A stretch of DNA of 32,438 nucleotides from an uncultured Limosilactobacillus sp. (GTDB lineage: Bacteria > Bacillota > Bacilli > Lactobacillales > Lactobacillaceae), in NCBI GenBank assembly GCA_944327195.1, contig CALVGV010000024.1:1-32438 (forward strand), in the 5' to 3' direction. Each line of letters starts with the position of its first letter. Within the stretch, counting starts at the first letter, position 1. Both the position numbers and the translations under genes were made by a program. Of this stretch, positions 411 to 30,140 are shown one piece after another. The notes below the pieces were generated by a model. It did no database searches. It worked only from the letters and a program-made list of their open reading frames with translations, and was not told where the DNA came from.

Positions 411-554
411 CGGAGCGGAGCGAAAATACGAGCCAAGATAGCGAAATTTCACTTGGCGATTTATCGCCTAGTGAAAGGCCAAGCTTCGAGACTCTGAAGG
501 AGGCTCGAAGTTGTGCCCGCTATCGTCACGGCTCGTAATTTTTGCGGAGCGGAG
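411..554 (+). repeat. Structured repeat type A, copy A1
   Basis: Three-branched imperfect palindrome. Outer stem: TACGAGCC pairs with GGCTCGTA, then GATAGC with GCTATC. First branch: TTTCACT/AGTGAAA closing GGCGA/TCGCC with loop TTTA. Second branch: CTTCGAG/CTCGAAG. GGAGCGGAG flanks it on both sides as a direct repeat. It stands in tandem with A2 at a 188-bp period. Several stem bases differ from A2, but in every stem the partner base changed as well. No open frame with a ribosome site. Orientation is set by the shared GGCC(G/A)AGCTT and TGTGCCC blocks. Confidence 0.85.
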
Positions 555-598
555 CCGCCGCCAAGCGAATAGAACCGTTCAGCGGCATCGGTACCACC

Positions 599-741
599 CG
601 GAGCGGAGCGAAAATGCGGGCCAAGATGGTGAAATTTCACTTGGCGATTTATCGCCTAGTGAAAGGCCGAGCTTTGAGACCCGGAAGGGCTCAAAGTCGT
701 GCCCGCCATCGTCACGGCCCGTAATTTTCGCGGAGCGGAGC
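599..741 (+). repeat. Structured repeat type A, copy A2
   Basis: Same fold as A1 with other stem sequences: GCGAAAAT/ATTTTCGC, CGGGCC/GGCCCG, GATGGT/GCCATC, then hairpins TTTCACT/AGTGAAA and CTTTGAG/CTCAAAG. It ends 6 nt from the nusG stop codon and runs antisense to nusG. The direct flanks GGAGCGGAG are kept, which could allow unequal recombination with A1. It has no run of Ts after the palindrome on either strand, so it is not a standard intrinsic terminator, although so strong a fold directly after nusG could affect mRNA 3' ends. Confidence 0.85.
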
Positions 742-746
742 ACCCA

Positions 747-1352
747 CTATTCGACGGCATCAACCTGATCAAAGCCAAGTTCCGCCGCGGTTTGCCGCCC
801 AAACATTTCAATGTTGGCCTTGAGCTTCATGTGTTCGTGGTCGACCTCGGTAACGACCCCACTCAGGTTGGCGAAGGAACCGGCGATGACCTTGATGTGG
901 TCGCCGACCTTGACGTCGATGTCAGTCCGCTCCGGTGCCTCTTCGTCGGTCCAGCTGAGGATCCGCTTTACTTCGTCTGGTTGCAGCGGGGTTGGCTTGG
1001 ACCCACCCCCGTGGGAACCGAGGAAACCAGTGACCCCCGGGGTGTTCCGGGCGATGTACCAGGCCCGGTCGGTCATCACCATTTCAACCAGCACATAGCC
1101 CGGGAAGACCTTTTCTTCGATGTCCTTGGTCTTGCCGTCCTTTACCTGGTGAACCGTTTCTTCCGGCACGATTACCCGGAAGATGTAGTCCTCCATCCCC
1201 ATCGATTGGGCCCGCGATTCAAGGTTGCTCTTCACCCGGTTTTCGTAACCGGAGTAGGTGTGCAACACGTACCAGCGCTTGGCTTGCGAGGTTACTTCTT
1301 GGTCGACTTCTTGGGCGCGTTCGCTGCCCGTTGCTTGTGTCTTTTCTTCCAC
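747..1352 (-). CDS. nusG: Transcription elongation/termination factor NusG
   Basis: NusG binds RNA polymerase and modulates pausing, termination and coupling to ribosomes. The 201-residue protein has an acidic N-terminal extension of about 24 residues, then the NGN domain starting at KRWYVLHTYSGYEN with the conserved FPGYVLVEM, and a C-terminal KOW domain (VGDHIKVIAGSFANLSG... about residues 147-200). The family is usually near 180 residues, and the difference is the N-terminal extension. Start is GTG at 1350-1352 behind AAGGAG with 6 nt spacing. It follows secE on the same strand, the standard arrangement, but a terminator-like hairpin separates them. Downstream come two structured repeats and then rplK. 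Confidence 0.97.
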   Translation of the reverse strand: MEEKTQATGSERAQEVDQEVTSQAKRWYVLHTYSGYENRVKSNLESRAQSMGMEDYIFRVIVPEETVHQVKDGKTKDIEEKVFPGYVLVEMVMTDRAWYIARNTPGVTGFLGSHGGGSKPTPLQPDEVKRILSWTDEEAPERTDIDVKVGDHIKVIAGSFANLSGVVTEVDHEHMKLKANIEMFGRQTAAELGFDQVDAVE

Positions 1353-1404
1353 GTTGTACTCCTTCTTTGTTTCTTACCGGCATCTCGCCTGTGCAGGGCA
1401 AAAT

Positions 1405-1441
1405 AAAAAAGCCCGCACTGAGACGAACTTTTCGTTGGGCT
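1405..1441 (-). terminator. Terminator-like hairpin between secE and nusG
   Basis: On the minus strand AGCCC (1437-1441) pairs with GGGCT (1410-1414), with an inner ACGAA/TTCGT hairpin, directly followed by six Ts (1405-1410). It lies 37 nt after the secE stop and 53 nt before the nusG start. It should lower transcription from secE into nusG, or act as an attenuator. No separate nusG promoter is evident in the gap. Confidence 0.6.
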
Positions 1442-1477
1442 AATTATAGCAAACTTTCCCCTTCGTGGCTAGGGATC

Positions 1478-1657
1478 TTACTTGACGAAGGACAACATCC
1501 CCTGCTGGATCAGCCAGTCGAAGAGGGCGAAGAAGAGGACGAAGAAGATCGTGATCGTCAATACGATCCCGGTATCCCGCCGGTTCTCCTTGGCAGTCGG
1601 CCAAACTACCTTGTGCATTTCCGCGACGACGCTCTTTGTAAACCGAATCAAGTGCAT
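1478..1657 (-). CDS. secE: Preprotein translocase subunit SecE
   Basis: A 59-residue protein starting MHLIRFTKSVVAEMHKVVWP. The amphipathic N-terminal helix with VVWPTAKE is the SecE signature, and it is followed by one membrane helix (about residues 31-52). SecE clamps SecY in the SecYEG channel. The ATG at 1655-1657 has GGAGG 5 nt upstream. It starts 15 nt after the rpmG stop and precedes nusG, the conserved order rpmG-secE-nusG. The length is normal for the short Gram-positive form. A longer open frame overlapping it on the same strand (1440-1718) gives an Arg/Pro-rich product and is not the gene. Confidence 0.95.
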   Translation of the reverse strand: MHLIRFTKSVVAEMHKVVWPTAKENRRDTGIVLTITIFFVLFFALFDWLIQQGMLSFVK

Positions 1658-1672
1658 CCCTACCTCCGAATT

Positions 1673-1825
1673 CTACCGGGTTTGCCGGTGCAGTGTCACC
1701 TGCTGACAGTGCTTGCAAAATTTCTTTAATTCTAATCGTTCACTCGCCTGCTTGGCGCTGATGTTGACCGTGTAGTTGCGGGCTCCGCAGCGGGAGCACT
1801 CGAGGCCAACTTTGCGGTGTGCCAT
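1673..1825 (-). CDS. rpmG: Ribosomal protein L33
   Basis: A 50-residue basic protein starting MAHRKVGLECSRCGARNYTV. Four cysteines (C10, C13, C37, C40) form the two CxxC pairs of the zinc-binding form of L33. L33 is a small 50S protein near the E site. The ATG at 1823-1825 has GGAGG 8 nt upstream. It lies between sigH and secE as in other Bacilli, and probably shares a transcript with secE. Because all four cysteines are present, this copy is of the zinc-dependent type, and a zinc-free paralogue may exist elsewhere. Confidence 0.95.
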   Translation of the reverse strand: MAHRKVGLECSRCGARNYTVNISAKQASERLELKKFCKHCQQVTLHRQTR

Positions 1826-1882
1826 TGTGGCCACCTCCAATCAGATTTTACTCTAGCATATTTGCTTTTTGAGGGCAAGCGA

Positions 1883-2470
1883 TCAAAAACGCCAGCCGCG
1901 CTCCTCGCGCAAGGCCTGGTACTTGCGGCGCGAGCGCCACACCGCCCCGCGGACGCTCGCCAGGGAAAGGCCCAGCTTGTGGCTGGTCGCCTCCAGCGAA
2001 TAGCCCTGGCAAATTAGCAAGAAGCACTCCTGCTCGCGCGGGCTGAGCTGGTTGATCAGCTCCCGCAGGCAGGCCCGGTAGTGAAGCAGCGAATCAAGGT
2101 CCGGCTGGTGGTCGGGTAGGTCGCCAACCTCACTGGCCTCCTCCAGGGAGCAGACCCGCTCCGCCGGGATCCGGTGCTTGCGCTGGCAGTCGCGGGAAAA
2201 ATCGGTTACCCGGTGTTCCAGGGTGCGGAGGTAGTAGTGGGCAAAGTGGGCCCCGGTTTCTTCGAAGCTTTGCAGGCACTTGTAGAGGGTGACCGCCGCC
2301 TCCTGTTCCCAGTCCTCCCAGCTCAGGTAGCGGGAGACCTGGGTTCGCCAGAGCTTCTTGATCAGCGGCGAATAGCGGTGGTAGAGGGTGGTGAAACTTT
2401 CTTCACTTTGGTGGCGCTTGACCTGGTAAATCAAGCGTTGTTCAGCAATTGCGGATTGTTCATTAATCAT
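1883..2470 (-). CDS. sigH: Sigma-70 family factor, SigH/ComX-like
   Basis: Alternative RNA polymerase sigma factor of 195 residues. Region 2 covers about residues 26-95 (LYHRYSPLIKKLW, then a DWEQEA core-binding segment), and region 4, a helix-turn-helix, covers about residues 142-185 (LSPREQECFLLICQGYSLEATSHKLG). The chosen start is ATG 2468-2470 (MINEQSAIAEQ), with AAGGTG about 9 nt upstream; the frame stays open 35 codons further upstream but without family-like sequence. Its place between rlmB and rpmG-secE-nusG is that of sigH in Bacilli. In lactobacilli this gene is tied to competence genes rather than sporulation (family knowledge). The 5' untranslated region is long. Confidence 0.85.
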   Translation of the reverse strand: MINEQSAIAEQRLIYQVKRHQSEESFTTLYHRYSPLIKKLWRTQVSRYLSWEDWEQEAAVTLYKCLQSFEETGAHFAHYYLRTLEHRVTDFSRDCQRKHRIPAERVCSLEEASEVGDLPDHQPDLDSLLHYRACLRELINQLSPREQECFLLICQGYSLEATSHKLGLSLASVRGAVWRSRRKYQALREERGWRF

Positions 2471-2638
2471 GACAAGGCACCTTGCTGCAATCTTCGCCCG
2501 GGACTGTCCCCCTGGAAGACCAGTCGGCCATCGCACCGCGAACCGATGCGGGGGAATGAAACCAGGAACTTTCACCTTGCTGGCTCAGTTGGCGCTTCCA
2601 GCAGGGCGGTTTGGCCAACTTAAGATCCGGACTTTTCT

Positions 2639-2667
2639 ACGGTACCAAAGGGTGCGAACGCTTTCAA
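2639..2667 (-). promoter_or_regulatory. Candidate sigH promoter
   Basis: TTGAAA (2662-2667) and TACCGT (2639-2644) are 17 nt apart on the minus strand, with TG one base before the -10. It would leave a leader of about 160 nt before sigH. The spacer 2471-2834 holds no gene: besides this site it contains GC-rich palindromic sequence around 2700-2750 and the rlmB terminator. Confidence 0.35.
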
Positions 2668-2780
2668 GGAGGAACGGGGCCATTAATCGGCTAATAATGC
2701 CCGCCCGGCCCGCGCGCCGGGTAAGGGCCGCGGCGGCAACGGGAGCCCAACGAGCGCCACTGTTAATCGGGTAACAATAA

Positions 2781-2816
2781 GGACCCGCTTCGCTGGCAAG
2801 GCAGCAGAAGCGGGCC
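2781..2816 (-). terminator. Terminator after rlmB
   Basis: GGCCCGCTTC and GAAGCGGGTCC pair into a 10-bp stem 19 nt after the rlmB stop. On the minus strand the tail is CTTATTGTT, a weak T-run, so termination may be partial. Confidence 0.55.
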
Positions 2817-2834
2817 GAAAATAAAAATTTTTTC

Positions 2835-3584
2835 TTAGCCGAGCGGGTGGCGGGAGGTGAAGCCTTGATAAATCAAGAGGCTGGCCGCCACGCTAGCGTT
2901 GAGGCTTTGGACGTGGCCGATCATCGGGATCGTCAGCATTTCGTCGCAGGTCTTCTTCAAGAGGCTGGAGATCCCCTTGCCCTCGTTGCCGATCACCAGG
3001 GCCACCGGACCGGTGGCGTCCCAACGGCGGTAGTCGGTCCCCTTCATGTCGGTCCCGAAGAGCCAGAGGCCGCGCTGCTGGAGCTCCTTGGCGGTTTGAA
3101 CCAGGTTGGTGACCCGGGCCACCGGCACGTGTTCCAGTGCTCCGGTCGAGGTCTTGGCAACCACGCTGGTTAATCCAACCGCCCGCCGCTTGGGGATGAT
3201 GATCCCGTGAACCCCGGCGGCGTCGGCCGTCCGCAAGATCGACCCCAGGTTGTGGGGGTCGTTGAGCTCGTCGAGGATCAAGAAGAAGGGCGCCTCGTCG
3301 CGTTCCGCTGCCCGGGCAAAGAGGTCGTCGATGGTGGCGTAGTGGTAGGCGGCCACCGCCAGGGCCACCCCCTGGTGGTTGGCGTTGGCCGTCAGCTGGT
3401 CGAGCTTGTTCTTTGGCACCTGGGTGACCACCAGGTGGCGTTCCTTGGCCAGCTTGATGATCGTGGCAATCGCGTCGGCCCGCAGGTCGCGCTGGATGAA
3501 GACCTTGTTGATCTCCTGGTCGCTCTTCAAAGCGGCGACGGCCGGGTGGCGGCCGATGATGAATTCAGGCGTCTCACTTGGCAT
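2835..3584 (-). CDS. rlmB: 23S rRNA 2'-O-methyltransferase, TrmH/RlmB type
   Basis: SPOUT-class RNA methyltransferase predicted to methylate the 2'-O of a guanosine in 23S rRNA (RlmB) using S-adenosylmethionine. Of its 249 residues, about 5-75 form the substrate-binding domain. Motif 1 is [14 protein letters not shown] (108-121), motif 2 holds GNEGKG (about 198-203), and motif 3 is [14 protein letters not shown] (about 228-241), which makes the knotted cofactor site. The start ATG lies inside the end of mrnC (11-bp overlap), so the two are translationally coupled. The order cysS-mrnC-rlmB is conserved in Bacilli. The exact target nucleotide is inferred from the family. Confidence 0.93.
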
Positions 3585-3978
3585 GGTTCAGGTCCCCCTT
3601 TTCAACGTGGCCGATGCACCAGTAAACCAGCTGGTCGAGCCGTTCCTGCTGGCCGGAGAGCTTGAGGTAGCCGATCAGGGCCTCAAAGCCGGTTGAAATC
3701 CGGTAGGTTAAGACGCTGGTGTTCTTGGCGTGGGTGTAGCTGTTGGCGTTGCGGCCGCGCTTGAAGTAGGCCCACTCCTCCTCGGTCAGGTAGTCCTCTT
3801 CCTCCATCTTGGCGATCAGGGCCGCCTGGGCCTTGGCCGAGACGTAGCTGGTGGCGGCGCGCTGGAGGCGGTTGGGCTTGCTCATCCCCTTGGCCAAGAG
3901 GCGCTCGCGAACATAAACTTCGTAGACGGCATCGCCGAGGTAGGCCAGGGCGATGCCGTTCAATTGCTTGTAATCCAT
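3574..3978 (-). CDS. mrnC: Mini-ribonuclease III
   Basis: A small RNase III-like nuclease without a double-strand RNA-binding domain, which trims the ends of 23S rRNA precursors in Firmicutes. The 134 residues carry the signature [18 protein letters not shown] (11-28) with the catalytic acidic residues D16 and E20, and the later [14 protein letters not shown] segment typical of the family. The ATG is 1 nt after the cysS stop and the 3' end overlaps rlmB, so the three genes form one tight operon linking cysteinyl-tRNA synthesis with rRNA maturation. Length is normal for the family. Confidence 0.95.
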
Positions 3979-3979
3979 C

Positions 3980-5386
3980 TTATTCCTTTCTGTAGCGGGT
4001 CCCCTGGGGGGTGTCTTCTAGGATGATCCCCTGGGCCTTGAGGTCGTCTCTGATCTGATCGCTGAGGGCAAAGTTCTTTTCCTTGCGGGCCTGGTTGCGC
4101 TTTTCGATCAGGGCCTCAATCGCCGCGTCGTCGATCTGCTTGCTCTCCAGCTTGATGCCAAAGATTGCCGTCAGCTCGGTCAATAGGTCCAAGAAGCCGG
4201 TCAGGGCGTCTGCCTGGACGGTTTCCTGCTGGGCGTAAACGTTGGCCTCCTTAGCCAGTTCGTAGACGACGGCGATCCCGTTTTGGACGTTGATGTCGTC
4301 GTTCATCGCCGTGATGAAGCGGTCCTTGAATTCAGCTAGCTTGGCGGTGACCGCCGGGTCATCCCCCGCCGCGGCATCCTGCTGGCGGTAGGTCAGGTTG
4401 TCGTAGGTGTGCTGGAGGTGGGCCAGGTTGTTGGCGGCGTCGGTCAGCTTTTCCTGGCTGTACTGGATTGGCCGCCGGTACTGGGTGGTGGCCATGAAGA
4501 AGCGCAGCACCTGCGGGTCGACCGTCTTTAGGATCTCGTGGACGGTGACGAAGTTGTGTAGCGACTTGCTCATCTTCTCGTTGTCCTTGCCGATGGTGAC
4601 GAAGCCGTTGTGCATCCAGTAGCGGACGAAGGGCTTGCCGGTGACCGGTTCGACCTGGGCAATTTCGTTTTCGTGGTGGGGGAAGGTCAGGTCCTGGCCG
4701 CCGGCGTGGATGTCGACCGTCTCGGCCAGGTACTTGGTGGCCATGACCGAGCACTCGATGTGCCAGCCCGGCCGGCCGGCGCCCCAGGGCGAATCCCAGC
4801 TGATCTCACCCGGCTTGGCCGCCTTCCAGAGGGCGAAGTCGAGCGGGTCTTCCTTTTGGTCGACCTCGGCGGCGGAGACGTGCTCGCTGGCGCCGGTTTC
4901 CAGGTCGTCGATCGACTGGCCGGACAGCTTGCCGTAGCCGGCGAACTTGCGGGCCCGGTAGTAGACCGTGCCGGATACCTCGTAGGCGTAGCCCTTTTCG
5001 ATCAGGGCGCTGATCAGGTCGATGATCCCGGCGATGTTGTCGGTTGCCCGCGGGTGAAGGGTGGCCGGCTCAACGTTGAGGGCGGTCGTGTCCTCCATGA
5101 AGGCGGCGATGTACTTTTCGGCCAGCTGGGGCACGGTGATCCCCTGCTCCTTGGCGGCCTTGATCATCTTGTCGTCAACGTCGGTGAAGTTGGAGACGTA
5201 GTTGACTTGGTAGCCCAAAAACTCGAGGTAGCGCCGGACGGTATCGAAGGCCACCACGCTGCGGGCGTTTCCGATGTGGATGTAGTTGTAGACGGTCGGC
5301 CCACAGACGTACATGGTAACCACCCCCGGCTGTTGAGGGGTGAATTCTTCCATCTGACGGGTGAGGTCGTTGTAAATTTTGAGCAT
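3980..5386 (-). CDS. cysS: Cysteinyl-tRNA synthetase
   Basis: Class I aminoacyl-tRNA synthetase joining cysteine to tRNA-Cys. The 468-residue product has the HIGH-type motif HIGN (37-40), the KMSKS motif (271-275), and the zinc ligands C28, C212, H237 and E241 that give cysteine selectivity. The start ATG at 5384-5386 gives the family N-terminus [11 protein letters not shown]; an in-frame ATG 8 codons upstream overlaps the Shine-Dalgarno purines (AAGGAAGAAGGA) and is less likely. It heads the cysS-mrnC-rlmB operon. No T-box is visible upstream, nor is cysE or gltX, which precede cysS in Bacillus. Confidence 0.97.
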
Positions 5387-5422
5387 CGTCCTTCTTCCTT
5401 TCTCGCGCAATCAAGTACTTCA

Positions 5423-5431
5423 ATCTTACCA
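5423..5431 (-). promoter_or_regulatory. Extended -10 for cysS
   Basis: TGGTAAGAT on the minus strand matches TGnTAnnnT and lies 37 nt before the cysS start. There is no clear -35 box 17 nt upstream. The same nine bases occur before the first acetyltransferase gene (12418-12426). Confidence 0.35.
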
Positions 5432-5610
5432 CAAGATCGGCCGCCGCCGGGGCGGATCTGACCGTTTGGCTCGCTTAATTATTCCCCCGGGGAATGGGCT
5501 TTCTTGGGTCCAAAAGCGGGAGTTTCTGTCTTGTAAATTCCTTGGGCACCAAGGGTTTGGGGTGCTTTACCCTTGTTTTAGTTTTCCATCATATTTTCTT
5601 CAAACAAGAC

Positions 5611-5622
5611 TGCTAGTATATA
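5611..5622 (+). promoter_or_regulatory. Candidate promoter of an orphan plus-strand transcript
   Basis: TGCTAGTAT (5611-5619) is an extended -10 and overlaps TATATA. The -35 region (ATATTT) is poor. No plus-strand protein gene follows, only the small-RNA candidate. Confidence 0.35.
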
Positions 5623-5626
5623 AAGC

Positions 5627-5781: not shown

Positions 5782-5798
5782 GTCGTCTTGCTAGCCAC

Positions 5799-7627: not shown

Positions 7628-7694
7628 AGCATTCGCCTCCTTTCATTTCATTGTTTAGGGTTGTGGGGGCCTCCACTCCGGAAAAGTGCGGGGG

Positions 7695-7860
7695 GGCCTC
7701 CGGGGAGTAGCTTCCGGGAGACTGGAACGGGGTGGGCACGACTTGAAGCCCACCGGAATCGCTTCGCTCTCCGGCGGTCTTCAAGCTCGGCCTTCCACTA
7801 GGCGATAAATCGCCAAGTGGAACGACACCCCTGAGCTCCCGGGTCTACTCCCCTCCGGCC
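7695..7860 (-). repeat. Structured repeat type B, copy B1
   Basis: Same three-branched plan as type A with a longer base stem. Read on the minus strand: GGGGAGTAG/CTACTCCCC, CCGGGAG/CTCCCGG, GGGGTG/CACCCC, then branch 1 TTCCACT/AGTGGAA closing GGCGA/TCGCC, then branch 2 CTTGAAG/CTTCAAG with an inner CCGCCGGA/TCCGGTGG. It sits 67 nt upstream of the yacL start in the same orientation, so it may be part of that 5' untranslated region. Confidence 0.85.
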
Positions 7861-8234
7861 CGGCATCGATGGTGGAACCGGACTAGCAACAGGCAGGAGG
7901 CACCACGGTTCTCTTCTACCGGTTGTGGAAATGATTCACTGCTTTGGTCCCTGATGCTTGAAGTGGAGAATTATTCACCATTTGTCGATCACAACTTGTG
8001 GTAGTTGTTGGCCGCTCACAAGCAGTTGCATTCGCAACGCTGCGTTGCCGGGCAATGGAGGCCCTCACTAGCAAGTAGCAGTACTATTTTCACCACAACG
8101 CGTAGAGCTAATTCGTACCAGTTAGGTAAGAAGCCACGCATGGTGGTGCGTTTAGCCTTAGTTGGCGAAATCACACCTAGTAGCGGTTGCTGCCCCTTTA
8201 CAATCAGTTGCATTCGCAACGTTGCGAAGCCGGG
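7861..8234. repeat. Gene-free spacer with two copies of a 22-bp hairpin repeat
   Basis: CAGTTGCATTCGCAACG at 8023 and again at 8205 belong to 22-bp copies (8023-8044, 8205-8226) differing at one base. Each contains the hairpin GTTGC-ATTC-GCAAC and is followed by GCCGGGC. The second leads straight into type A copy A3, so the first may mark the edge of a decayed copy. No coding frame here is convincing. Confidence 0.5.
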
Positions 8235-8377
8235 CCGGAGCGGAGGAAAATGCGGGCCAAGATGGTGAAATTTCACTTGGCGGTTTACCGGCTAGTGAAA
8301 GGCCAAGCTTTGAGACCCGGAGGGGCTCAAAGTTGTGCCCACCATCGTCACGGCCCGCAATTTTCCGGAGCGCAGGC
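8235..8377 (+). repeat. Structured repeat type A, copy A3
   Basis: GCGGGCC/GGCCCGC, GATGGT/ACCATC, TTTCACT/AGTGAAA and CTTTGAG/CTCAAAG form the common fold. The loop-closing stem GGCGG/CCGGC of branch 1 has one mismatch. It lies 33 nt past the radA stop, antisense to radA, as A2 does for nusG and A4 for ktrA. Confidence 0.85.
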
Positions 8378-8410
8378 CCTCCGCAAGGCTGCCCTTCGCA
8401 GGCCGGCCAC

Positions 8411-12410: not shown

Positions 12411-12470
12411 AACGAGATGGTAAGATGGAAGCAATTCTTTCCCAGTACAAACAGAAAGGGGCCGATTCAA

Positions 12471-13112
12471 ATCGAAGAGAACACCAAGCGGATGCTGGCC
12501 GGCCAGCTCTACAGTCCCCACACCGCCGAGTTGCAGGCGCTGATCACCCGCGGCCACCACCTCAGCCACGACTACAACCTGACCTACGAGGAGGACGTCA
12601 CCCGCCGGGCCGCCATCCTCGACCAACTGCTCGGCCACCACGGGACCGATCCCTACCTCCAGGGGCCGATCCACTTCGACTACGGCCGCTTCACTAGCGT
12701 TGGCGACCACTTCTACGCCAACTTCAACCTGACCGTCCTCGACACCTGCCCGGTGACGATCGGCGACAACGTGATGTGCGGTCCCAACGTCAGCCTGATC
12801 ACCGCCGAACACCCGCTAACGGTGGCCGAGCGCAACCCCAAGTTCGTTGATGGCCAGCCGGTGAGCTGCGAGTTTGGCCGGCCGATCACGATTGAAGACA
12901 ACTGCTGGCTGGGGTCCAACGTGACCGTCCTCGGCGGGGTGACGATCGGAGCCGGCAGCGTGATTGGCGCCGGAACGGTCGTCACCAAGGACGTGCCGGC
13001 CAACTCGCTGGTCGTTGGCCAACCGGGCCGGGTCCTGCGAACGATCACCGCCGCCGACCGCCAACCGGGCTTCGCCGCCTGGGCCCGCCAGGCCGGCTTC
13101 CCGCTCGACTAG
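12471..13112 (+). CDS. Sugar O-acetyltransferase (LacA/Maa type), copy 1
   Basis: Left-handed beta-helix acetyltransferase of the maltose/galactoside O-acetyltransferase family, using acetyl-CoA. It has an N-terminal Maa domain (ENTKRMLAGQLYSPHTAEL), then hexapeptide repeats (about residues 70-185) with the catalytic-region histidine in LITAEHPL and the closing GSVIGAGTVVTKDVPANSLVVG. It is strongly similar to the next gene along the whole length, so this is a tandem duplication. Aligned with copy 2, the start falls on ATC at 12471, with AAAGGGG 9 nt upstream. The in-frame ATG at 12417 adds 18 unrelated residues, lacks a ribosome site and lies in a TGGTAAGAT -10 element. The start is therefore uncertain (12417, 12471 or 12492). 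Substrate unknown. Confidence 0.82.
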   Translation: MEENTKRMLAGQLYSPHTAELQALITRGHHLSHDYNLTYEEDVTRRAAILDQLLGHHGTDPYLQGPIHFDYGRFTSVGDHFYANFNLTVLDTCPVTIGDNVMCGPNVSLITAEHPLTVAERNPKFVDGQPVSCEFGRPITIEDNCWLGSNVTVLGGVTIGAGSVIGAGTVVTKDVPANSLVVGQPGRVLRTITAADRQPGFAAWARQAGFPLD

Positions 13113-13192: not shown

Positions 13193-13804
13193 ATGGAACA
13201 AAATACCCGCGACATGCTGGCCGGTAAGCCCTACACCCCGGCGACGGCCGAAATCAGCCGCTACGCTCAGGCGGGCCACCGGCTCAGCCAGGAATACAAC
13301 CAGACCTTCGACACCGAAAGCGAAAAGCGGGCGTCCCTGGTCGATCAGCTACTCGGCGGCCACGGGAAAAACACCTACCTCCAGGGGCCGATCCAGTTTG
13401 ACTACGGCCGCTTCACCACCGTTGGCGACAATTTCTACGCCAACTTCAACTTCACCGTCCTCGACACCTGCCCGGTGACGATCGGTGACAACGTGATGAT
13501 CGGCCCCAACGTCAGCCTGCTGACCGCCAAGCACCCGCTGATGTACCAGCAACGCAACGTCCGCGAGGTCGACGGCGAAATGGTTGACTACGAGTTCGCC
13601 GCCCCAATCACGATCGGGGACAACTGCTGGCTGGGCGGCAACGTGACCGTCCTCGGCGGGGTGACGATCGGCGCCGGCAGCGTGATCGGCGCCGGAACGG
13701 TCGTCACCAAGAGCGTGCCGGCCAACTCGCTGGTCGTCGGCGTTCCCGGCAAAGTCATCCGCCAGATTACCGAAGCCGACCGGATCGCCAACTACCCCTG
13801 GTAG
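13193..13804 (+). CDS. Sugar O-acetyltransferase (LacA/Maa type), copy 2
   Basis: A 203-residue hexapeptide-repeat acetyltransferase, the close paralogue of copy 1. The Maa domain spans about residues 1-60 (MEQNTRDMLAGKPYTPATAE). The beta-helix follows, with TVLDTCPVTIGDN, LTAKHPL (active-site histidine region) and GSVIGAGTVVTKSVPANSLVVG. It has a normal ATG with GGGAG 8 nt upstream and its own promoter, so it can be expressed separately from copy 1. It lacks the short C-terminal tail of copy 1 (QAGFPLD). Expected to acetylate a sugar or glycoside hydroxyl; the actual acceptor cannot be predicted. Confidence 0.9.
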   Translation: MEQNTRDMLAGKPYTPATAEISRYAQAGHRLSQEYNQTFDTESEKRASLVDQLLGGHGKNTYLQGPIQFDYGRFTTVGDNFYANFNFTVLDTCPVTIGDNVMIGPNVSLLTAKHPLMYQQRNVREVDGEMVDYEFAAPITIGDNCWLGGNVTVLGGVTIGAGSVIGAGTVVTKSVPANSLVVGVPGKVIRQITEADRIANYPW

Positions 13805-16644: not shown

Positions 16645-19204
16645 CTAGTGCTCGCGCCGCTTGCGCCAGCCAAGGGCGGTGGTGACGAGGGCGAGAAGGA
16701 CCCCGAGGACGGTCGTGGCTAGCGACCGGGCCGTCCCGGTTTGCGGTAGGCTAGTCGGTGAAGGGCCGGTGGCCGGCGAACCGCTAGATGGGGCCGGGCT
16801 GGTGGCCGGGGCCGCTTCGCTGCTTGCTGGAGCCGCGGAGACGGTTGCCGGGCCGGGGGCGAGTGGCTGCTGGCCGCGCGGCGCCGGGGCTTGGGCGGTT
16901 GGCGCCGGGGCCATCGCTGGATGGTCAACGGCGACCTTGGTTTGCGGGGTCGGCGTTGGCACGGCCGGGTTCAACGGGGCCACCCCGGTGCCGCTGGCCG
17001 GCGGAAGGGCCGGGGCGGCGCCACTCGGGGTCGGCGTGCCGCTGGTTGCGGGTGCCCCACTGGCAGCGGCCGAATCGCTAGCCGGCGTCGAATCACTGGT
17101 CGTGGCCGAATCGCTGGCCGGCGTCGAGTCACTGGTCGTGGCCGAATCGCTAGTCGTGGCCGAGCCGCTGGTCGTGCCGCCATCACTGCTGGTGGCCGGC
17201 TTGGTGTAAACCACCGTCGTCGTCGTGTCGCTACTGTTGGCGGTGACCGTCGAACCGGCGACCGCGGTTTGGCTTGCGTCGTAGCCGCTGATGACCGGGC
17301 TCTCGACCGTGCTGGTCGTCTGGGCCGGGCTCCACTCGCCGACCGTCGTCTGGCCGGTTACCGCGTCGGTGGAGGTTTCCCGGCTGAAGGTCAGGTCAAC
17401 CGAGGAGGCCGGCGCTGCCTCTGGTGTCGGTCACCGTGCCAGTGACGGTGGAACCGTCGGTCAGGGTCAGGGTGTAGGTGTAGCTGGTGGTCCCCGGCAT
17501 GGTGGTGTCACTGACCGGGGTCTTAATCCCGGTCACGTCCAGGCCGTCGGCAAAGTTCAGGTAGAAGGTGGCGTCGGTGAGGGCGTAGGCCGTGCTATTG
17601 GTCACCGTGAAGTAGTTGACGATCGCCGGGTTGTCGGTGTCGTCGCTGTCCAGGAGCAGTTCGGCGGCCGAATTGTTAGCAAGAGCAATCGCCGAGAACT
17701 CCCCCTCGGTGTCCGGCGGTACGGTGCCGGCAATCGTTTCGGTCCAAGCGTCCGCGGTCGCCGTCAAAGTCGTCGTTCCGCTGGTGGTGGCAACCGTTTG
17801 GGTAATCGTTACCTTGCCGTCGTTGGAGGCGAGCGGGTTATCGGCCGCCGAGATCACCGTATCGCTGGTGGACTGGGTGGTGTCAAAGGACCCCACCAGC
17901 TTGTAGCTCTTCCCCAAGTAGTTTTGGCTCCCGCTCCCCTTCGGGACGGTGATGATGATGTCGGTCCCGGTACCGCCCGGCTGGGTAATCGTCGTGTCAT
18001 CGGTAATTTCCTACAGGAGGAGCGAGCGGGTCTCGTCGAGGGTGAAACCGGCCGGCACCGGAATGTCGATCGTGGTGCCGAGGTTGACCGCCGAGTTGGC
18101 CTGACCGGAAGCGTAGGTCCCCTCCAGACCGTCGGTTTCGTTGAGGCTGAACTGGTAGGTGTACTCAACGTTTGGCAGAACCTTGGTGATCCCGCTGGAG
18201 CTGGACGGGGTGATCCGGGTGACCGCCGTTGGCGACATCGTGGGCGAAATGGTTTGCCACAGGACCAGCTCCGGGTTGGTGGTCGTTACCCCGTCGCGCG
18301 TGGTCGTCCAAGTGATTACCTTGGCGTAAGTCCCGGTCGGGTCGGTCATCGGCGTTTCGCTTTGCTTTTGGTAGCTATTGGTTTCGTTCAAGTAGAGGTA
18401 GAGGGTGAGGCTCGCCGCCACGCTAAAGGTGTAGGTGTAGGTTACCTGCCCGGAGACCGTTTCATCAACGAACGTTGTCCCGTAGGATGACGATAGGGAA
18501 CCGTCCGTCCCGACGCTAAGGTAGTAGGCGTTGGAGGTCGGAATGGTAATCGTGTAGACGTCCCCGGCCTTTGCGGAGAGGGAAAAGGTAACGGTGACCG
18601 AGTTCGTGTTGCCGTCATTGCCGACGGTGTTCTGGCTGACCGCCAGCGAGGACCCGTTGCTATCCGTTACCTTGGTGGCCGTGGTCGAGGCGTTGACGGT
18701 GTCAGTTGCCTCGGTGTAGTTGCTGATCGTGGTCGCCGAACTGTCACTGGTGGAATCGCTGCTGTCACTGGTCGTCGTACTACTACTGTCACTGGTCGTG
18801 GTGCTGGTGGTGGCCGCCAGGGCCGTCACCGTCGTGCTTGAACTGGCGGCGCTGGCACTCGAACTGGCCGCACTGGCGCTCGTGGTGGTGCTGCTTGCAC
18901 TGCTGCTGTCACTACTTGCCGAGCTGGCGGTGCTGGCCGCACTCGTGCTACTTGTACTACTGGTGGCACTGCTGGTCGCACTACTGCTTGCGCTCGTTGC
19001 CGTGCTAGTGGCCGCACTGGTGATCGCGGTCGTCGTGGCCGTGCTCGTCGCCGTGGTGTCGGCCATGGCGCTTGGCCCGGTCAGGAAGATGGTCGTGCCC
19101 AAAAGGACGGAAACGACCCCAATCGCGAGCTTGCGCAGGCCAAACCGCTGGGCCTGATCACGCCCCCGCCGTTGCATTAGCTGTTGATTCTTTCTCCCAA
19201 CCAT
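16645..19204 (-). pseudogene. LPxTG-anchored surface adhesin-like gene, disrupted
   Basis: Read as one gene it would encode about 850 residues. It has a YSIRK-type signal peptide (RFGLRKLAIGVVSVLLG, about residues 20-36), a long Ser/Thr/Ala-rich stretch (50-165), beta-rich domains, a MucBP-like end (TFSRETSTDAVTG...VISGYDASQTAV), a Pro/Ala/Thr/Ser-rich wall spanner and the sortase motif LPQTG, then a membrane helix and KRREH. Two lesions break it. One is an in-frame TAG at 18011-18013, after which the same frame continues with plausible domain sequence. The other is a frameshift near 17410-17425, after which the next frame continues to LPQTG. The start ATG has GGGAGG. Sequencing error is possible but would need two events. 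Confidence 0.8.
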
Positions 19205-20775: not shown

Positions 20776-20905
20776 CTCCTATGCGAAATTTGTGATCGGA
20801 TTTATAAAAAAATCCCTATGACCGCAGACATAGAGAAGGAATTTCAGTTCTTCCTCGGCAGGATATTAAGGCCGGTGGCCACCTGAGTCTTAGGCAGAGT
20901 CATAT
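20776..20905 (-). promoter_or_regulatory. L10 leader of rplJ with attenuator hairpin
   Basis: The untranslated leader contains CCTTAATATCCTGCCGAGG (20853-20871), a highly conserved part of the L10-binding leader in Firmicutes. Further on, CTATG/CATAG form a hairpin followed by GGGATTTTTTT, an intrinsic-terminator form just before the rplJ ribosome site. The known logic is that excess L10-L12 complex binds the leader and favours termination. Leader and hairpin are seen; the mechanism is by analogy. Confidence 0.85.
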
Positions 20906-20921
20906 TTAAATCAACTTCATC

Positions 20922-25279: not shown

Positions 25280-25296
25280 GCGATCATAAATTACGA

Positions 25297-25334
25297 AGGG
25301 GCCAAGTTGGATTTTCCCAGCTTGGCCCCTTTTG
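25297..25334 (+). terminator. Terminator of the two-component operon
   Basis: AGGGGCCAAG pairs with CTTGGCCCCT, followed by TTT. Confidence 0.85.
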
Positions 25335-25338
25335 CAAC

Positions 25339-25365
25339 CAAAAACAGGCCACCCAGGGGGCAGCC
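25339..25365 (-). terminator. Terminator of the fumarate reductase gene
   Basis: On the minus strand GGCTGCCC pairs with GGGTGGCC around CCT (two G-T pairs), followed by TGTTTTT. It is about 140 nt past the stop; the sequence between holds no gene. Confidence 0.55.
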
Positions 25366-25503
25366 CGTTTTCGGGTAATCTGATTTTTGCTTATTGGTTA
25401 GTGTTTTTCAAAGAGTTTCGTTTGCGATTTTTTCTACCGGTACGGCTTGACGAAGGCCGGAAGTCGCGAATTCCCTGCCTTGCCCAACCTGCCGGACCGT
25501 TAA

Positions 25504-26892
25504 TTACTTCAGCGTTTGGCTGTAGAGGGCCACCTGTTGGCCGGCCTGGCGACCAAAGATGATCGTTTCGGCGATCGAGTTGCCGCCGACCCGGTTGTTC
25601 CCGTGGAGCCCCCCGGCAACTTCGCCGGCTGCGTAGAGCCCCTTGATTACGTCACCGTTGCCGTCGAGGACCTCAGTCTTGGTGTTGATGTGGATCCCCC
25701 CCATCGTGTAGTGGATGGCCGGGGCAATGTGGATGGCGAAGAAGCCCGGCTTTTCGATCCCGCGGTCCATCCCGGTCGTCCGGTTGAATTCGGCATCGTT
25801 GCCGCTCTTAACGGCCTCGTTCCAGGTTGCCACCGTCTGCTTCAGGTTGGACGGGTCAACATTGATGTTCTTGGCCAGGTCTTCCAGGGTGTCACCGTGA
25901 ACCACCAGGCCGACCTTGTCGTAGAACTCGATGGCCTTCACGTGGTCACGGATCCCCTGGTCGAGGATCAGGTAGGCGCTGTGTTCCGGCAGGGCAGTGA
26001 TCGCGTTGGACACGATCTTGCGGGTGTTCAATTCGTTGACGAACCGCTTCCCCTCGCCGTTAACCAGGATGGCCCCTTCGCCCCGAACGGCTTCCCCGAT
26101 CAGGTAAACGTGCGGGTTGTCCTGTTGGACGGTCGGGTGAACCTGGATCAGGTTCATTTGCATCAGTTCGGCACCGAGGTCTTCGGCCAGCTTGAGACCG
26201 TCACCGGTTGCCCCCGGTTGGTTGGTCGTCTTGTAGTCGAGCAGGTCCGGCCGGAAGCGCTTCATGTATTCCTTGGAAGCACCGAAACCACCGGTGGCCA
26301 GGATGACCGCCTTGGCGGCAATCGTCTTGCTGGTGCCGTTGGCGTCGACCTCAACGCCGCTGACCCGGTCGCCGTCCTTGATCAGCTTGGTGACCTTGGT
26401 GTGGTTGAAGACCGGAATTTCTTCTTCCTTGGCCACCCGGAGGAGGCTCTTAACCAGGAAGCCACCGATCGGGGCCATCGAGGCCGGACGGTGGGTCCGC
26501 TTGCGCGACATCCCCCCGGTAATGGTGATGTCGGTCAGCTTGATGTCGTGGTCGGCCAACCAGTCAATCGCCGGGGCGGAGTGGTAAACGAAGTAGCCCA
26601 GCATGTCCTTGTCGTTGAGCTTGCCCCCGTCCTTGTAGGTTTCGTGGAAGAAGTCGGCCACGTTGTCGATCACCCCGTGGTGGAGTTGGACGTTGGTTTC
26701 GGCGGCGTTCATCCCGGACGAGGCCCGGTTGGTGTTCCCCCCGAGTTCGGCTTCCTTTTCCAGCACGGCCACGTCCAGCCCCAGTTCGTGGGCCTGGATG
26801 GCGGCGGCCAGCCCGGTCCCACCGGAACCGATGATCACGGCGTCGTATTGGTCAGCCAGTTGACTGGCCGGCAATGGTTCAAAATCTGCCAT
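25504..26892 (-). CDS. frdA: Fumarate reductase flavoprotein (flavocytochrome c type)
   Basis: A 462-residue soluble FAD enzyme of the fumarate reductase/succinate dehydrogenase flavoprotein family. The dinucleotide-binding motif is GSGGTG (22-27), followed by VLEKEAELGGNTNRASSGMNAA, and the C-terminal FAD loop is GLYAAGEVAGGLHGNNRVGGNS. It has no heme or FMN-binding domain, so it is a stand-alone FAD subunit, and the electron donor is not encoded nearby. With fumarase next door it would use fumarate as electron sink, producing succinate and reoxidising reduced cofactors. Start ATG with AGGAGG. A type B repeat lies 55 nt upstream, within the probable leader. Confidence 0.92.
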   Translation of the reverse strand: MADFEPLPASQLADQYDAVIIGSGGTGLAAAIQAHELGLDVAVLEKEAELGGNTNRASSGMNAAETNVQLHHGVIDNVADFFHETYKDGGKLNDKDMLGYFVYHSAPAIDWLADHDIKLTDITITGGMSRKRTHRPASMAPIGGFLVKSLLRVAKEEEIPVFNHTKVTKLIKDGDRVSGVEVDANGTSKTIAAKAVILATGGFGASKEYMKRFRPDLLDYKTTNQPGATGDGLKLAEDLGAELMQMNLIQVHPTVQQDNPHVYLIGEAVRGEGAILVNGEGKRFVNELNTRKIVSNAITALPEHSAYLILDQGIRDHVKAIEFYDKVGLVVHGDTLEDLAKNINVDPSNLKQTVATWNEAVKSGNDAEFNRTTGMDRGIEKPGFFAIHIAPAIHYTMGGIHINTKTEVLDGNGDVIKGLYAAGEVAGGLHGNNRVGGNSIAETIIFGRQAGQQVALYSQTLK

Positions 26893-26947
26893 TGGATTTT
26901 CCTCCTGAGTTTGGTGTTGCTTTCAACAGTAATTTGCACGCGGGTAG

Positions 26948-27104
26948 GGCCTCCGGGAAGGAGCTTCCGAGACACTGGAACGGGGTGGGCACGACTTTGA
27001 GCCCGGTGCCGGTCTCAAAGCTCGGCCTTCTACTAGGCGGTAAACCACCAAGTAGAACGATACCCCTGAGGTCTTGGGTCTCCTTCCCTCCGGCGGTGGT
27101 ACCA
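26948..27104 (-). repeat. Structured repeat type B, copy B2 (mixed type)
   Basis: Base stem GGGAAGGAG/CTCCTTCCC and GGGGT/ACCCC, branch 1 TTCTACT/AGTAGAA, branch 2 CTTTGAG/CTCAAAG. The base stem corresponds in position to that of B1 but with compensated changes, and branch 2 is of type A, so the copy is a mosaic. It lies in the frdA 5' region in sense orientation. The rest of the spacer (27105-27305) has no gene; it contains an inverted pair GCCGCT/AGCGGC near 27190-27222. Confidence 0.85.
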
Positions 27105-27305
27105 GCCGGTGACCACCCCAGAAAGGGAAATCGGCTTCGAAAGAGGATCCCCCAGGCACCAACCATGGCGAGTAAGGTTGTCCTCGCTACGCCGCTGGCA
27201 GCCCAAACAAGTAGGCCCCTAGCGGCAAGCAAGGACGAACCCGCCCTGCGAATTCGTCCTGCCCGTGCTTTTACTTCCCCTTGCGCTTTTTAAAGTGGCG
27301 CGAAC

Positions 27306-28694
27306 TTAGTCCTTACGGTCGACGTTGGTCATTTGGAGCATGTCCATCCATTCGTCGTATTGTTCTTCCGTTACCTTGCCGGACTTGAGGGCGGCTTCCT
27401 TCAGGGTGCTGCCGGCCTTGTCTGCGGCTTGAGCAATCTTGGCGCTGTCGTGGTAACCGATGTGTGGTGACAGGGCGGTAACCGTCATCAGCGAGTTGTC
27501 CAGGAGTTCCTTCATCCGGTCTTCGTTAACCGTCATGCCGTGGATCATCTTGTCGGCAAAGCCCATGATCGTCCCGGTCAGCAAGTCAGCCGATTCCAGG
27601 AAGGCGTCGATCAGAACTGGCTTGAAGACGTTCATTTCGAAGTTCCCTTGGGAGGAGGACATCGAAACTACCACGTCGTTCCCGAAGACGCGCATTGCGG
27701 CCATCGTAACGGCTTCGGCCTGGGTTGGGTTAACCTTCCCTGGCATGATCGAGGAGCCTGGTTCGTTGGCCGGAATGTTCAGTTCGCCGTAACCTGCCCG
27801 CGGGCCAGAAGCCAGGAAGCGGATGTCTTGGGCGATCTTGAACATGTCGGCAGCTAGGGTCTTGAGGGCGCCGTGAACAACGTCGAGGCCGGAGTGGTGA
27901 GACAGGCCGTAGAACTTGTTGGTCTTGGCGGTGAATTCGTGCCCGTAAACGGCGCTCATCTTTTCGGCGATCTTTTCCGGCATCCCCGGAGCGGCGTTGA
28001 GCCCGGTCCCAACGGCCGTCCCCCCGATGGCCAATTCAAGCAGGGTTGGCGTCAGGGTCTTGAGGTAGTCGAGGTCGTGTTCCAGAGCGGAAACGTAACC
28101 GGAGATTTCTTGGCCGAAGGTCAGCGGAGTGGCGTCTTGCAGGTGGGTCCGCCCAACCTTAACCGTGTGCCAGTACTTCTCTTGCTTTACCTTCAGTTCG
28201 TCGATCAGGTGTTGAACGGCTGGTTCCAGCTTGTCGATGGCTTCCACGGCCACGATGTTCATTGCCGTCGGGAAGGTGTCGTTGGAGCTTTGGCCCTTGT
28301 TGACGTCGTCGTTCGGCAGGATTTCGATGTCCGGGTTGAGTTGGTGGCACTTGTGGGCAACCACTTCGTTCGTGTTCATGTTGGTTTGGGTCCCGGAACC
28401 GGTTTGGTAAACCTTCAGCGGGAAGTCCTTGCGGAGGTCTTCGTCGCTCAGGGCAAGCAGTTCGTCGATTGCCTTAACGATCAATTGACCCTTTTCCTCG
28501 CTGATTTGGTTTGATTCCATGTTGGCCTGGGCCGCTGCCTTCTTAATGTTCAGCAGTGCACGAATGATGGCCAGCGGCATGAATTGGCCGGTCGGGAAGT
28601 TGTTCCGGCTCCGCTCAGTTTGCGGGCCCCAAAGGGCAGCCGCCGGGATTTGGACTGGACCTAAAGTGTCTTCTTCAGTACGAAATTCAGCCAT
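27306..28694 (-). CDS. fumC: Class II fumarase
   Basis: Converts malate to fumarate and water reversibly, without an iron-sulfur cluster. The 462 residues contain TGSGTQTNMN (98-107), GRTHLQDA (181-188) and the superfamily signature GSSIMPGKVNP (313-323) with the catalytic serine loop. The ATG at 28692-28694 has GGAGG upstream. It lies directly upstream of frdA on the same strand (gap 413 nt with repeat B2), so malate to fumarate to succinate is encoded as a pair. Codon use looks like that of a highly expressed gene. Confidence 0.97.
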   Translation of the reverse strand: MAEFRTEEDTLGPVQIPAAALWGPQTERSRNNFPTGQFMPLAIIRALLNIKKAAAQANMESNQISEEKGQLIVKAIDELLALSDEDLRKDFPLKVYQTGSGTQTNMNTNEVVAHKCHQLNPDIEILPNDDVNKGQSSNDTFPTAMNIVAVEAIDKLEPAVQHLIDELKVKQEKYWHTVKVGRTHLQDATPLTFGQEISGYVSALEHDLDYLKTLTPTLLELAIGGTAVGTGLNAAPGMPEKIAEKMSAVYGHEFTAKTNKFYGLSHHSGLDVVHGALKTLAADMFKIAQDIRFLASGPRAGYGELNIPANEPGSSIMPGKVNPTQAEAVTMAAMRVFGNDVVVSMSSSQGNFEMNVFKPVLIDAFLESADLLTGTIMGFADKMIHGMTVNEDRMKELLDNSLMTVTALSPHIGYHDSAKIAQAADKAGSTLKEAALKSGKVTEEQYDEWMDMLQMTNVDRKD

Positions 28695-28960
28695 GTTCTT
28701 TCCTCCAAACTCGTTGTTGTGAACAGTTGCACATTTGATTACGGATTAAGAATAATCCAGGCGACTAGGGATAGTCAAATCTTCGGTGGTCGATAAATGT
28801 TTCGTATATGATACCAAGAAATCGCTACCATTAGTGGACCGCAAGCGGGTTCAAATTGGTGAAAGGGGCCGCGCCCAGGCTTTCAGAAATAAAATTTTGT
28901 CAATTTTTTGGGCGAACCGGGTCGCGGGGGCCGGATTGGATTGGCTAATTGGTGCCAAAT

Positions 28961-28980
28961 GAAAACGACCAGGTCGTTTC
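28961..28980 (-). terminator. Terminator of the YbjQ-family gene
   Basis: GAAACGACC pairs with GGTCGTTTTC, 7 nt after the stop. The stem carries the T-run in its 3' arm (TTTTC). The rest of 28695-28960 has no gene. TGGTATCAT (minus, 28808-28816) is a possible fumC -10. Confidence 0.6.
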
Positions 28981-28987
28981 TTGTGGC

Positions 28988-29245
28988 TTAATCGGTGAAG
29001 CGGACCGCCGTCCCGTAGGCCACGACTGACTGCATGTCCTGGGCGGCCTCTTGAAGGCGGTCGAGGGCCTGAAGGCGGGCCTTTTCGAGCATCTTGGTGT
29101 AGGAGCGAATCTCGCCGCCAGTGATGTTCTTTAGTTGGGCGCCGAAGTCGCTGATGGCGTTGCGCGACTGGGTGGTGACGCCAAAGACCTCGCCGAGGAC
29201 TTCGTAGGAGTGGCCCGGAATCTGTTCGGTGGTGGTGATTAACAT
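28988..29245 (-). CDS. YbjQ/UPF0145 family protein, internally shortened
   Basis: An 85-residue relative of YbjQ, a family of small pentameric proteins sometimes called heavy-metal-binding; its role is unknown. The N-terminal two thirds fit well ([11 protein letters not shown]...[53 protein letters not shown] is the normal course of the family in outline), and the end [11 protein letters not shown] is the normal last strand. The usual stretch between them, with the conserved GA-x-AVVG-x-RF motif (about 18 residues), is missing; the family is normally near 105 residues. Reading frame and ribosome site (AAGGAGG) are intact, so it may still be expressed. Confidence 0.8.
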
Positions 29246-29545
29246 GGTGGTACCTCCTTTGGAAGGTTTGGAAGTTAGTTGTTCATCAACCTAATAATAA
29301 CAAGACTAGGGCTTGAATTAGAAGCAAAAAGGGACAACTTCGCCCGTCGGTAGTCGCAACGGAAAGTACCTCTGCGCAACTAGCTTCTCCCGCCCTACAA
29401 CATAGAAAAGATGGTTGTGACCACTCCTGCAACTAGCCGTCGGGCCGGAGCGGAGCAGAGCGAAAATACCCCTCAGCCAGGGAATTCCCGGCAACTTGGA
29501 ACTAATCGCCACCCAACAGCGGAAAGTAGCAGTGGTACCACCGCC

Positions 29546-29829
29546 GGAGGGGGAGTGGACCCGGGAGCTCGCGGTTCGCTGTTAGCCAATCGCTCGTCGC
29601 AAGCTCCTCGTTCTTGGACAGCTATCGCATGGAATGTTTCTAAGTCGGAAGCCTTCCGCTGGTCGGCTTCCAACTAAGTAACATTCGCAAGGGGTGTCGT
29701 TCCACTTGGCGATTTATCGCCTAGTGGAAGGCCGAGCTTGAAGACCGCCGGAGAGCGAAGCGATTCTGGTGGGCTTCAAGTCGTGCCCACCCCGTTCCAG
29801 TCTCCCGGAAGCTACTCCCCGGAGGCCAC
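29546..29829 (+). repeat. Structured repeat type B, copy B3, split by a 119-bp insertion
   Basis: The 5' arm (29546-29570, ending CCGGGAGCTC) matches B1. Then 119 bp of other sequence (29571-29689) intervene, and at AGGGGTGTCG (29690) the B1-like sequence resumes to GGAGGCC at 29827. Stems: GGGGAGT/ACTCCCC, CCGGGAG/CTCCCGG, GGGGTG/CACCCC, TTCCACT/AGTGGAA, CTTGAAG/CTTCAAG. The insertion has a hairpin GGAAGCC/GGCTTCC but no obvious terminal repeat or target duplication. The preceding spacer 29246-29545 has no gene; the minus-strand TGTTATTAT at 29294-29302 is a possible -10 for the YbjQ-family gene. Confidence 0.8.
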
Positions 29830-29954
29830 GTAGCGTTCCAGGGGTGCCCTTAGTGAAGCGGAGTTCCCTCGGGTAGTCTGTACCCTTCCAAGCAAAGAAA
29901 AGGGGGTTGTAGCCCCCCTCTCAATCAGTAGCCACTCTCGCAGCTAGCCGCCGG

Positions 29955-30140
29955 GCCGGAGCGGAGAAAAATGCGGGCCAAGATGGTGAAATTTCACTTG
30001 GCGGTTTATCGCCTAGTGAAAGGCCAAGCTTTGAGACCCGGAGGGGCTCAAAGTTGTGCCCACCATCGTCACGGCCCGCAATTTTTCGGAGCGGAGGCCC
30101 ACCATCGTCACGGTCCCGCCCCTTTTGAGGAGCGGAGGCC
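29955..30140 (+). repeat. Structured repeat type A, copy A4, with duplicated 3' arm
   Basis: GCGGGCC/GGCCCGC, GATGGT/ACCATC, TTTCACT/AGTGAAA, GGCGG/TCGCC and CTTTGAG/CTCAAAG form the common fold (29955-30100). The 3' arm from CCCACCATCGTCACGG to GGAGCGGAGGCCC is then repeated once (30098-30140) with changes. The end is 8 nt from the ktrA stop, antisense to ktrA. Confidence 0.85.

Follow-up and report, generated by a model that had tools for sequence, protein, structure and literature searches.

A widespread family of paired, three-branched intergenic repeats in Lactobacillaceae, a probable mobile DNA element

The genome of an uncultured Limosilactobacillus sp. (assembly GCA_944327195.1) carries an intergenic repeat, seven copies of which lie in the window studied here, i.e., the whole 32,438-nucleotide (nt) stretch of contig CALVGV010000024.1. 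The repeat is a real and widespread DNA repeat family, seen so far in Lactobacillaceae only. We consider it probable (about 0.62) that its copies belong to a propagating, mobile, noncoding DNA element of these bacteria, the full unit of which is a head-to-head pair of ∼150-nt arms. This reading is carried by a common fold with covariation, by the close head-to-head neighborhood of arms, by a high copy number with a patchy distribution, and by a unit that was gained at one junction between genes.

Results

The original prediction, made from the letters of the window, described seven copies of one fold. A covariance model placed all seven, with the fold as described: a base stem bears two hairpins and stands atop a longer outer stem, and the whole arm measures ∼150 nt and comprises three helices. 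Because six of the seven window copies (all but the one with its core at 29687) were among the 42 sequences used to build the model, its matches give placement and not independent proof. When folded as single-stranded DNA, the seven sense stretches had z-scores of −4.5 to −8.4, and none of the 200 dinucleotide shuffles of each folded as well; two antisense stretches, with z-scores of −6.3 and −6.2, were likewise equaled by no shuffle. The window copies form two subfamilies, A (copies at 411, 599, 8235, and 29955) and B (7695, 26948, and 29546), which are unlike in outer-stem sequence but have a common geometry, namely, a base stem of 6 to 7 pairs, a lopsided internal loop of 2 versus 5 nt, and then the outer stems.

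Covariation was evaluated in alignments that were fitted to the structure and contain related sequences, so that the shuffle figures below are not probabilities. Among 59 anchor hits, nine were excluded at the 3' motif (three coding hits due to chance, five arms bearing an inserted module, and the L031 variant) and one was a duplicate; the remainder, together with six sequences of other species, made 55. Alignment A1 retained 47 of these, after exclusion of four irregular copies (window 29679, L035, L004:1949, and L006:1191) and four repeats of others (L009:1515, L021, L047, and L048), and alignment A2 retained 42, five near-identical A copies having been dropped from A1. Alignment A4 comprised all 77 matches at an E value of ≤1e-3 from 49 chosen loci of 102.

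In the 42-sequence alignment, which is mostly from the window's own genome, 98.0% of 1,425 cells were paired, compared to 88.0% in shuffles and 40 to 46% with slid partners, and 146 cells had changed on both sides versus 37 in shuffles. For 73 distinct sequences from many genera, 95.0% of the cells were paired (shuffles, 74.4%; slid partners, 34 to 47%), 526 cells had changed on both sides versus 137.4 in shuffles, a value that 0 of 500 shuffles reached, and several pairs showed all four Watson-Crick types. Further pair types were not in excess in the smaller alignment (28 versus 29.1 in shuffles) and numbered 77 versus 64.8 in the larger one. The stem variants for which compensating partners had been listed were present in the alignments. 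A joint said to stay fixed, GGCC(G/A)AGCTT, proved to covary instead, since its A/G pairs with the T/C of AGTYGTG (21 A-T, 20 G-C, and 1 G-T in the 42 sequences). Together, the shuffled controls, the slid controls, and the many genera represented strongly support, in both alignments, the proposed selection on folding, and the weight of this case comes from the slid controls and the spread over genera, not from the shuffle figures alone.

The repeat also occurs outside this locus. A blastn search with one copy gave 51 matches in the window's own genome, and a search with one window copy gave none in 55 relatives; the covariance model found 81 matches in the own genome at an E value of ≤1e-3. 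An exact 19-mer of the joint region led to Lactiplantibacillus fabifermentans, L. nangangensis, and Companilactobacillus formosensis, where a like fold has other outer stems. With the covariance model, 5 of 50 genomes of the genus had matches, namely, the own genome and four others with 47, 20, 8, and 2. Across the family Lactobacillaceae, matches were found in 104 of 397 genomes and 14 of 40 genera; since no more than ten candidates were scored in each genome, copy numbers from this survey are lower bounds. A survey of the class (398 genomes of 146 genera), run with strict filters and ten candidates scored, gave a match in the own genome alone and in 0 of the 397 others, among which were two other Lactobacillaceae, both without a match. 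Two near-complete genomes, G447 and G196, had 92 and 103 matches, respectively; we refer to them as Companilactobacillus from the genus label that they have in common with G260 (C. formosensis). In genome G149, one locus (L091) contained an inverted arm as well as a direct tandem of three arms, repeated every 168 nt.

A plasmid version of ∼337 nt with imperfect terminal repeats was found in L. plantarum, L. pentosus, and L. salivarius, each time in other surroundings. The L. salivarius version (plasmid pSF118-44, L102) carries a nested insert, a sequence within its first branch that is itself three-branched by eye. The window copy at 8229-8382 had no blastn match in plasmids or phages, from which records near the own genome were possibly excluded, two exact-pattern scans of viral contigs gave nothing, and one unit from each of two Companilactobacillus genomes had no plasmid match. 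A phage or plasmid repeat was rejected as the origin, given the lack of plasmid and phage matches to the window copy and the empty viral scans. Plasmid copies do exist in Lactiplantibacillus and Ligilactobacillus, but a plasmid single-strand origin was rejected as a general explanation in view of the 80 to 100 copies in whole genomes.

Neighboring arms within 700 nt of each other were head to head in 16 cases in the own genome, at least 17 in G196, and at least 10 in G447, i.e., at least 43 in all. No tail-to-tail neighbors were found within this distance in the own genome or, among the matches listed, in G196 and G447. Same-direction neighbors numbered 9 in the own genome and 0 in both G196 and G447 among the matches listed. 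These counts used 82 matches in the own genome and the best 83 and 67 matches in G196 and G447. Of 13 own-genome pairs typed by eye, nine were A+B, three were A+A (L009, L031, and L036), and one combined A with a B-like arm of a third type. Further pairs occurred in loci of L. nangangensis, C. formosensis, G070, and G019, and weakly in G058. The units have terminal inverted repeats, read by eye, such as TGCCGTCGTCC..GGACGACGGCA in Companilactobacillus. Behind a full arm there are often one or two additional 3' tails, from either the same subfamily or the other one, which points to repeated overwriting of earlier units by later ones.

Comparison of gene junctions revealed the gain of a unit. 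The distance from radA to the start of the PIN-domain gene is ∼20 to 45 nt (range by eye) in the 12 relatives that were read, from 29 loci taken and 44 relatives matched in all, versus 783 nt in the window, where the gap is filled by a B-A unit plus remnants. Two of these 12 relatives, G019 and G058, are carriers of the repeat that have no unit at this junction. At a C. formosensis site (L049), the flanks were joined within ∼0 to 80 nt in 5 of the 24 loci read (L138, L145, L146, L148, and L151), four loci (L133 to L136) contained the unit or its edge, and the remainder had other sequence or no right flank. The G447 unit at this site is inverted relative to that of G260, as judged from BLAST strands and direct alignment, and by eye the flanks are almost the same. 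In two other genomes of the C. formosensis genus (L156 and L157), the same gap holds quite different sequences with units of the same kind by eye, which suggests that the gap occupied in C. formosensis is a preferred insertion gap.

The original prediction had left open whether the selected fold is one of RNA or of single-stranded DNA. In 31 pairs of 73 distinct rows, we counted 2,168 Watson-Crick, 39 G·T, 27 A·C, and 12 other cells; this count excludes three ragged pairs (columns 4, 86, and 87), with which G·T amounts to 72 of 2,464 paired cells. Three tRNAs from the same loci, taken as a control, had 57 Watson-Crick, 8 G·T, and 0 A·C in 65 pairs. G·T was rarer in the repeat than in the tRNAs (Fisher P = 4e-5), and G·T and A·C were near equality (P = 0.18). 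Selection on a sense RNA would be expected to make G·T common and A·C rare, and near equality would result from a constraint indifferent to strand or from a DNA hairpin that tolerates neither. In G447, for which neighboring genes were called by a simple reading-frame caller and replication direction was taken from the GC skew of stretches, 38 single arms lay in line with both genes (14), against both (7), between convergent genes (10), or between divergent genes (7). A fixed transcriptional orientation was therefore rejected, all four neighbor-strand arrangements being found. With few G·T, a similar number of A·C, and no set relation to neighbor strands, we favor a fold of DNA rather than RNA. 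A known RNA family was also rejected: an Rfam search of the window at gathering scores gave no match at the repeat, and in four loci searched at E values up to 5, the single overlap was mir-9413 at L045 6477-6542 (E value of 4.2; 21.7 bits against a cutoff of 100), which is at chance level.

A link to a TnpA-REP/Y1 transposase, also suggested at the outset, found no support. Y1_Tnp (PF01797) matched in 12 of 30 chosen carrier genomes and had no match in the other 18, which include G447 and G196 with their 92 and 103 matches. These high-copy genomes without Y1 led us to reject a REP-associated tyrosine transposase (RAYT) or IS200 as a general mover. The own genome has one Y1 transposase gene (L041), which is adjoined by an unrelated hairpin (by eye).

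In G447, an insertion sequence resembling the IS3 family and comprising two reading frames was observed at one same spot of the arm in four copies (L169, L194, L203, and L219), namely, in the 3' internal loop behind its GTTC. The first frame matched HTH_Tnp_1 and the second was assigned by eye; L194 and L203 are identical over 1,491 nt. This fixed spot recalls the insertion sequences that target repetitive extragenic palindromes (REPs), as reported in the part of PMC1525189 consulted.

The arms in the window are arranged as follows; the core positions come from the covariance model and mark cores only, the outer arms reaching further out. The A-type arm at 411-554 (plus strand; core 434-531) has the next copy as a neighbor in the same orientation, an A-type arm at 599-741 (plus strand; core 622-717) whose 3' end is 5 nt from the nusG stop. 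Between radA and the PIN-domain gene, a head-to-head unit consists of a left B-type arm at 7695-7862 (minus strand; core 7721-7835), a spacer at 7863-8228, and a right A-type arm at 8229-8377 (plus strand; core 8258-8353). Outside the B arm, a partial extra A-type 3' tail at 7663-7694 (minus strand) is read as the remnant of an older copy. The spacer is associated with two copies of a 66-nt module (7988-8053 and 8170-8235) that are 79% alike, and similar sequence lies upstream of many A arms elsewhere (by eye). A single B-type arm occupies 26948-27097 (minus strand; core 26974-27070). Further on, a B-type arm at 29540-29829 (plus strand; core 29687-29801) has its 5' outer arm separated from the core by a 119-nt insert (29571-29689) and is followed by an A-type arm at 29950-30097 (plus strand; core 29979-30074) with an extra A-type 3' tail at 30098-30140 (plus strand) directly behind it. 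The original list of copies is thus to be qualified in that the plus-strand copy at 29546 includes the insert and the copies at 7695 and 26948 sit on the minus strand.

The insert at 29571-29689 belongs to a second repeated module, GCGGTTCGCC...AACATTCGCA, of ∼118 to 145 nt, which has entered A and B arms at various points (also in L037, L038, L039, L040, L027, L035, and L006) with no target duplication readable at these sites. Locus L028 (∼1960-2050, near 2007) has a B-type outer stem without both branches, GGGGTGCCCACCCC, which may represent either a bare ancestral state or the outcome of a clean deletion. Elsewhere in the window, tandem-duplicate open frames at 12417-13112 and 13193-13804 have 80 to 85% DNA identity over two blocks of 212 to 215 nt and resemble hexapeptide acetyltransferases (by eye). 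The minus strand carries a gene at 18011-19204, whose product has a YSIRK signal peptide and is probably a surface protein, and a ribosomal protein L10 leader at 20798-20912 (Rfam RF00557).

Discussion

As we picture the mobile element, each arm, when single stranded or extruded, would fold into the long base stem with two hairpins, and a trans-acting enzyme of the host or of a mobile element would recognize the folded arm pair, probably while the DNA is single stranded during replication. This enzyme, which in many carriers would not be a Y1/RAYT transposase, would then copy or move the unit into intergenic gaps, and single arms and stray 3' tails would represent broken or overwritten units. 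Several results weigh against this proposal. Single arms make up 38 of the 57 G447 sites, and the three plasmid loci tested hold one arm each and no pair. Of the 38 G447 single arms, 26 are oriented with replication (P = 0.034), a bias that also follows gene direction. A target-site duplication could be read neither at three units of C. formosensis nor at the empty L049 sites, the divergence of the latter being too great, and no autonomous copy emerged, in that no transposase was recognized by eye, without a family search of the frames, in nine stretches spanning long interarm intervals. The gain at radA may have been one event of another kind, followed by spread through recombination, and ordinary homologous recombination can account for in-place inversion and arm swapping. 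The RNA control for the pair statistics consisted of three tRNAs only, and copying of one arm from the other could also keep pairing strict.

The terminal inverted repeats of Companilactobacillus units and the imperfect ones of the plasmid version would fit a classic miniature inverted-repeat transposable element (MITE), i.e., a nonautonomous element that is cut and pasted by a DDE transposase reading short terminal inverted repeats and that needs no Y1 enzyme, its fold being a by-product or serving host-gene regulation. We judge this explanation unlikely: the internal fold persists across genera whose end sequences differ greatly, the internal branches covary more strongly than a by-product would lead one to expect, and neither a transposase in the nine intervals read nor a target duplication was seen. 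A structured RNA, transcribed as a cis-regulatory element or small RNA, spread by recombination, and selected for its RNA fold, would explain the strong covariation, the conservation of unpaired residues in the internal loops and junction, and the intergenic sites beside gene starts and ends, including one unit in a 5' untranslated region (by eye). Such an RNA is distinctly improbable in view of the G·T and A·C counts set against those of the tRNAs, the occurrence of single arms in all four neighbor-strand arrangements, the up to 103 matches per genome, and the head-to-head pairs, which leave one arm antisense.

The repeats also invite assignment to the REP doublets known as REPINs or to bacterial interspersed mosaic elements (BIMEs), in which REP sequences are moved by a genome-encoded RAYT (Y1 transposase). 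The head-to-head hairpin doublets in gene gaps, the single arms as possible remnants, the compensated arms, the high copy number, and the targeting by an insertion sequence agree with such elements (compare PMC3116915, in the part consulted). Membership proper is nevertheless largely refuted by the high-copy carriers that are free of Y1, is at odds with ∼150-nt three-branched arms in place of one short palindrome and with the unrelated hairpin beside the sole Y1 gene of the own genome, and appears to us very remote. The original prediction of an unrecognized, REP-like family is, on the other hand, strongly supported by the absence of an Rfam match and by the head-to-head doublets.

Beyond the mobile head-to-head element itself, we tentatively suggest that it could represent a separate class of selfish DNA in bacteria, made of paired three-branched DNA folds that an enzyme other than Y1/RAYT would spread within and between Lactobacillaceae. 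Structure and not sequence would then be inherited and recognized, as the stems are rewritten between and within genomes with pairing kept. About a quarter of the sampled Lactobacillaceae genomes (the 104 of 397 above) carry the repeat, in up to ∼100 copies, and we found for it neither a name nor an Rfam model. Its stems having been rewritten with every one of the four base-pair types, it offers a clear natural record of selection on an apparent DNA fold, and it raises the testable question of what moves REPIN-like elements where RAYT is absent. The repeat alters gene gaps; in food and probiotic bacteria, it may influence expression as well as assembly from short reads, and it could be of use as a marker for typing.

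Correia/NEMIS, ERIC, RUP, BOX, and bcr repeats are intergenic bacterial repeats with hairpins that occur in other hosts; none is known to have a three-branched head-to-head anatomy. A further likeness is to the palindrome-bearing MITEs of the IS200/IS605 type, whose subterminal hairpins are recognized as single-stranded DNA. In the present family, however, the arms are inverted to each other and not codirectional, and Y1 is absent from 18 of the 30 carriers. MITEs in general are likewise short, noncoding, and present in many copies with terminal inverted repeats, but here there is no target duplication seen and no autonomous relative in the stretches read, and the internal fold is strongly selected.

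The family is apparently undescribed. We found no description of such repeats in the open-licence literature on lactobacilli, structured RNAs, or REP/RAYT/BIME, which is weak evidence of absence. The part of PMC3733652 consulted does not mention Lactobacillus, that of PMC2267715 does so solely in one table row, for L. johnsonii, and that of PMC6006769 has none of the terms sought.

The nearest comparison is with REPINs and BIMEs. According to the excerpts consulted, REPINs are REP doublets that form hairpins and are thought to be moved by RAYTs, with single REPs as remnants and with compensatory changes (PMC3116915), the REP palindrome measures 20 to 40 nt (PMC3733652), and insertion sequences can target REPs (PMC1525189). 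The same excerpts, with that of PMC2817692, give the likenesses: the unit is an inverted hairpin doublet, intergenic and present in tens to hundreds of copies (PMC3116915, PMC2817692, PMC1525189), singles appear as remnants, changes are compensatory, and insertion sequences use the repeats as targets (PMC3116915, PMC1525189). The differences lie in the arm, which here is ∼150 nt long with a base stem and two branches and there is one palindrome of 20 to 40 nt (PMC3733652, in part), in the many carriers without RAYT, and in a range confined so far to Lactobacillaceae. Moreover, no GTAG or CGTC foot is common to the genera whose ends were read, CGTC being found in Companilactobacillus ends. We therefore read the family as new REPIN-like, mobile-looking DNA, which is akin to REPINs and BIMEs by behavior and stands apart from them by anatomy and enzyme.

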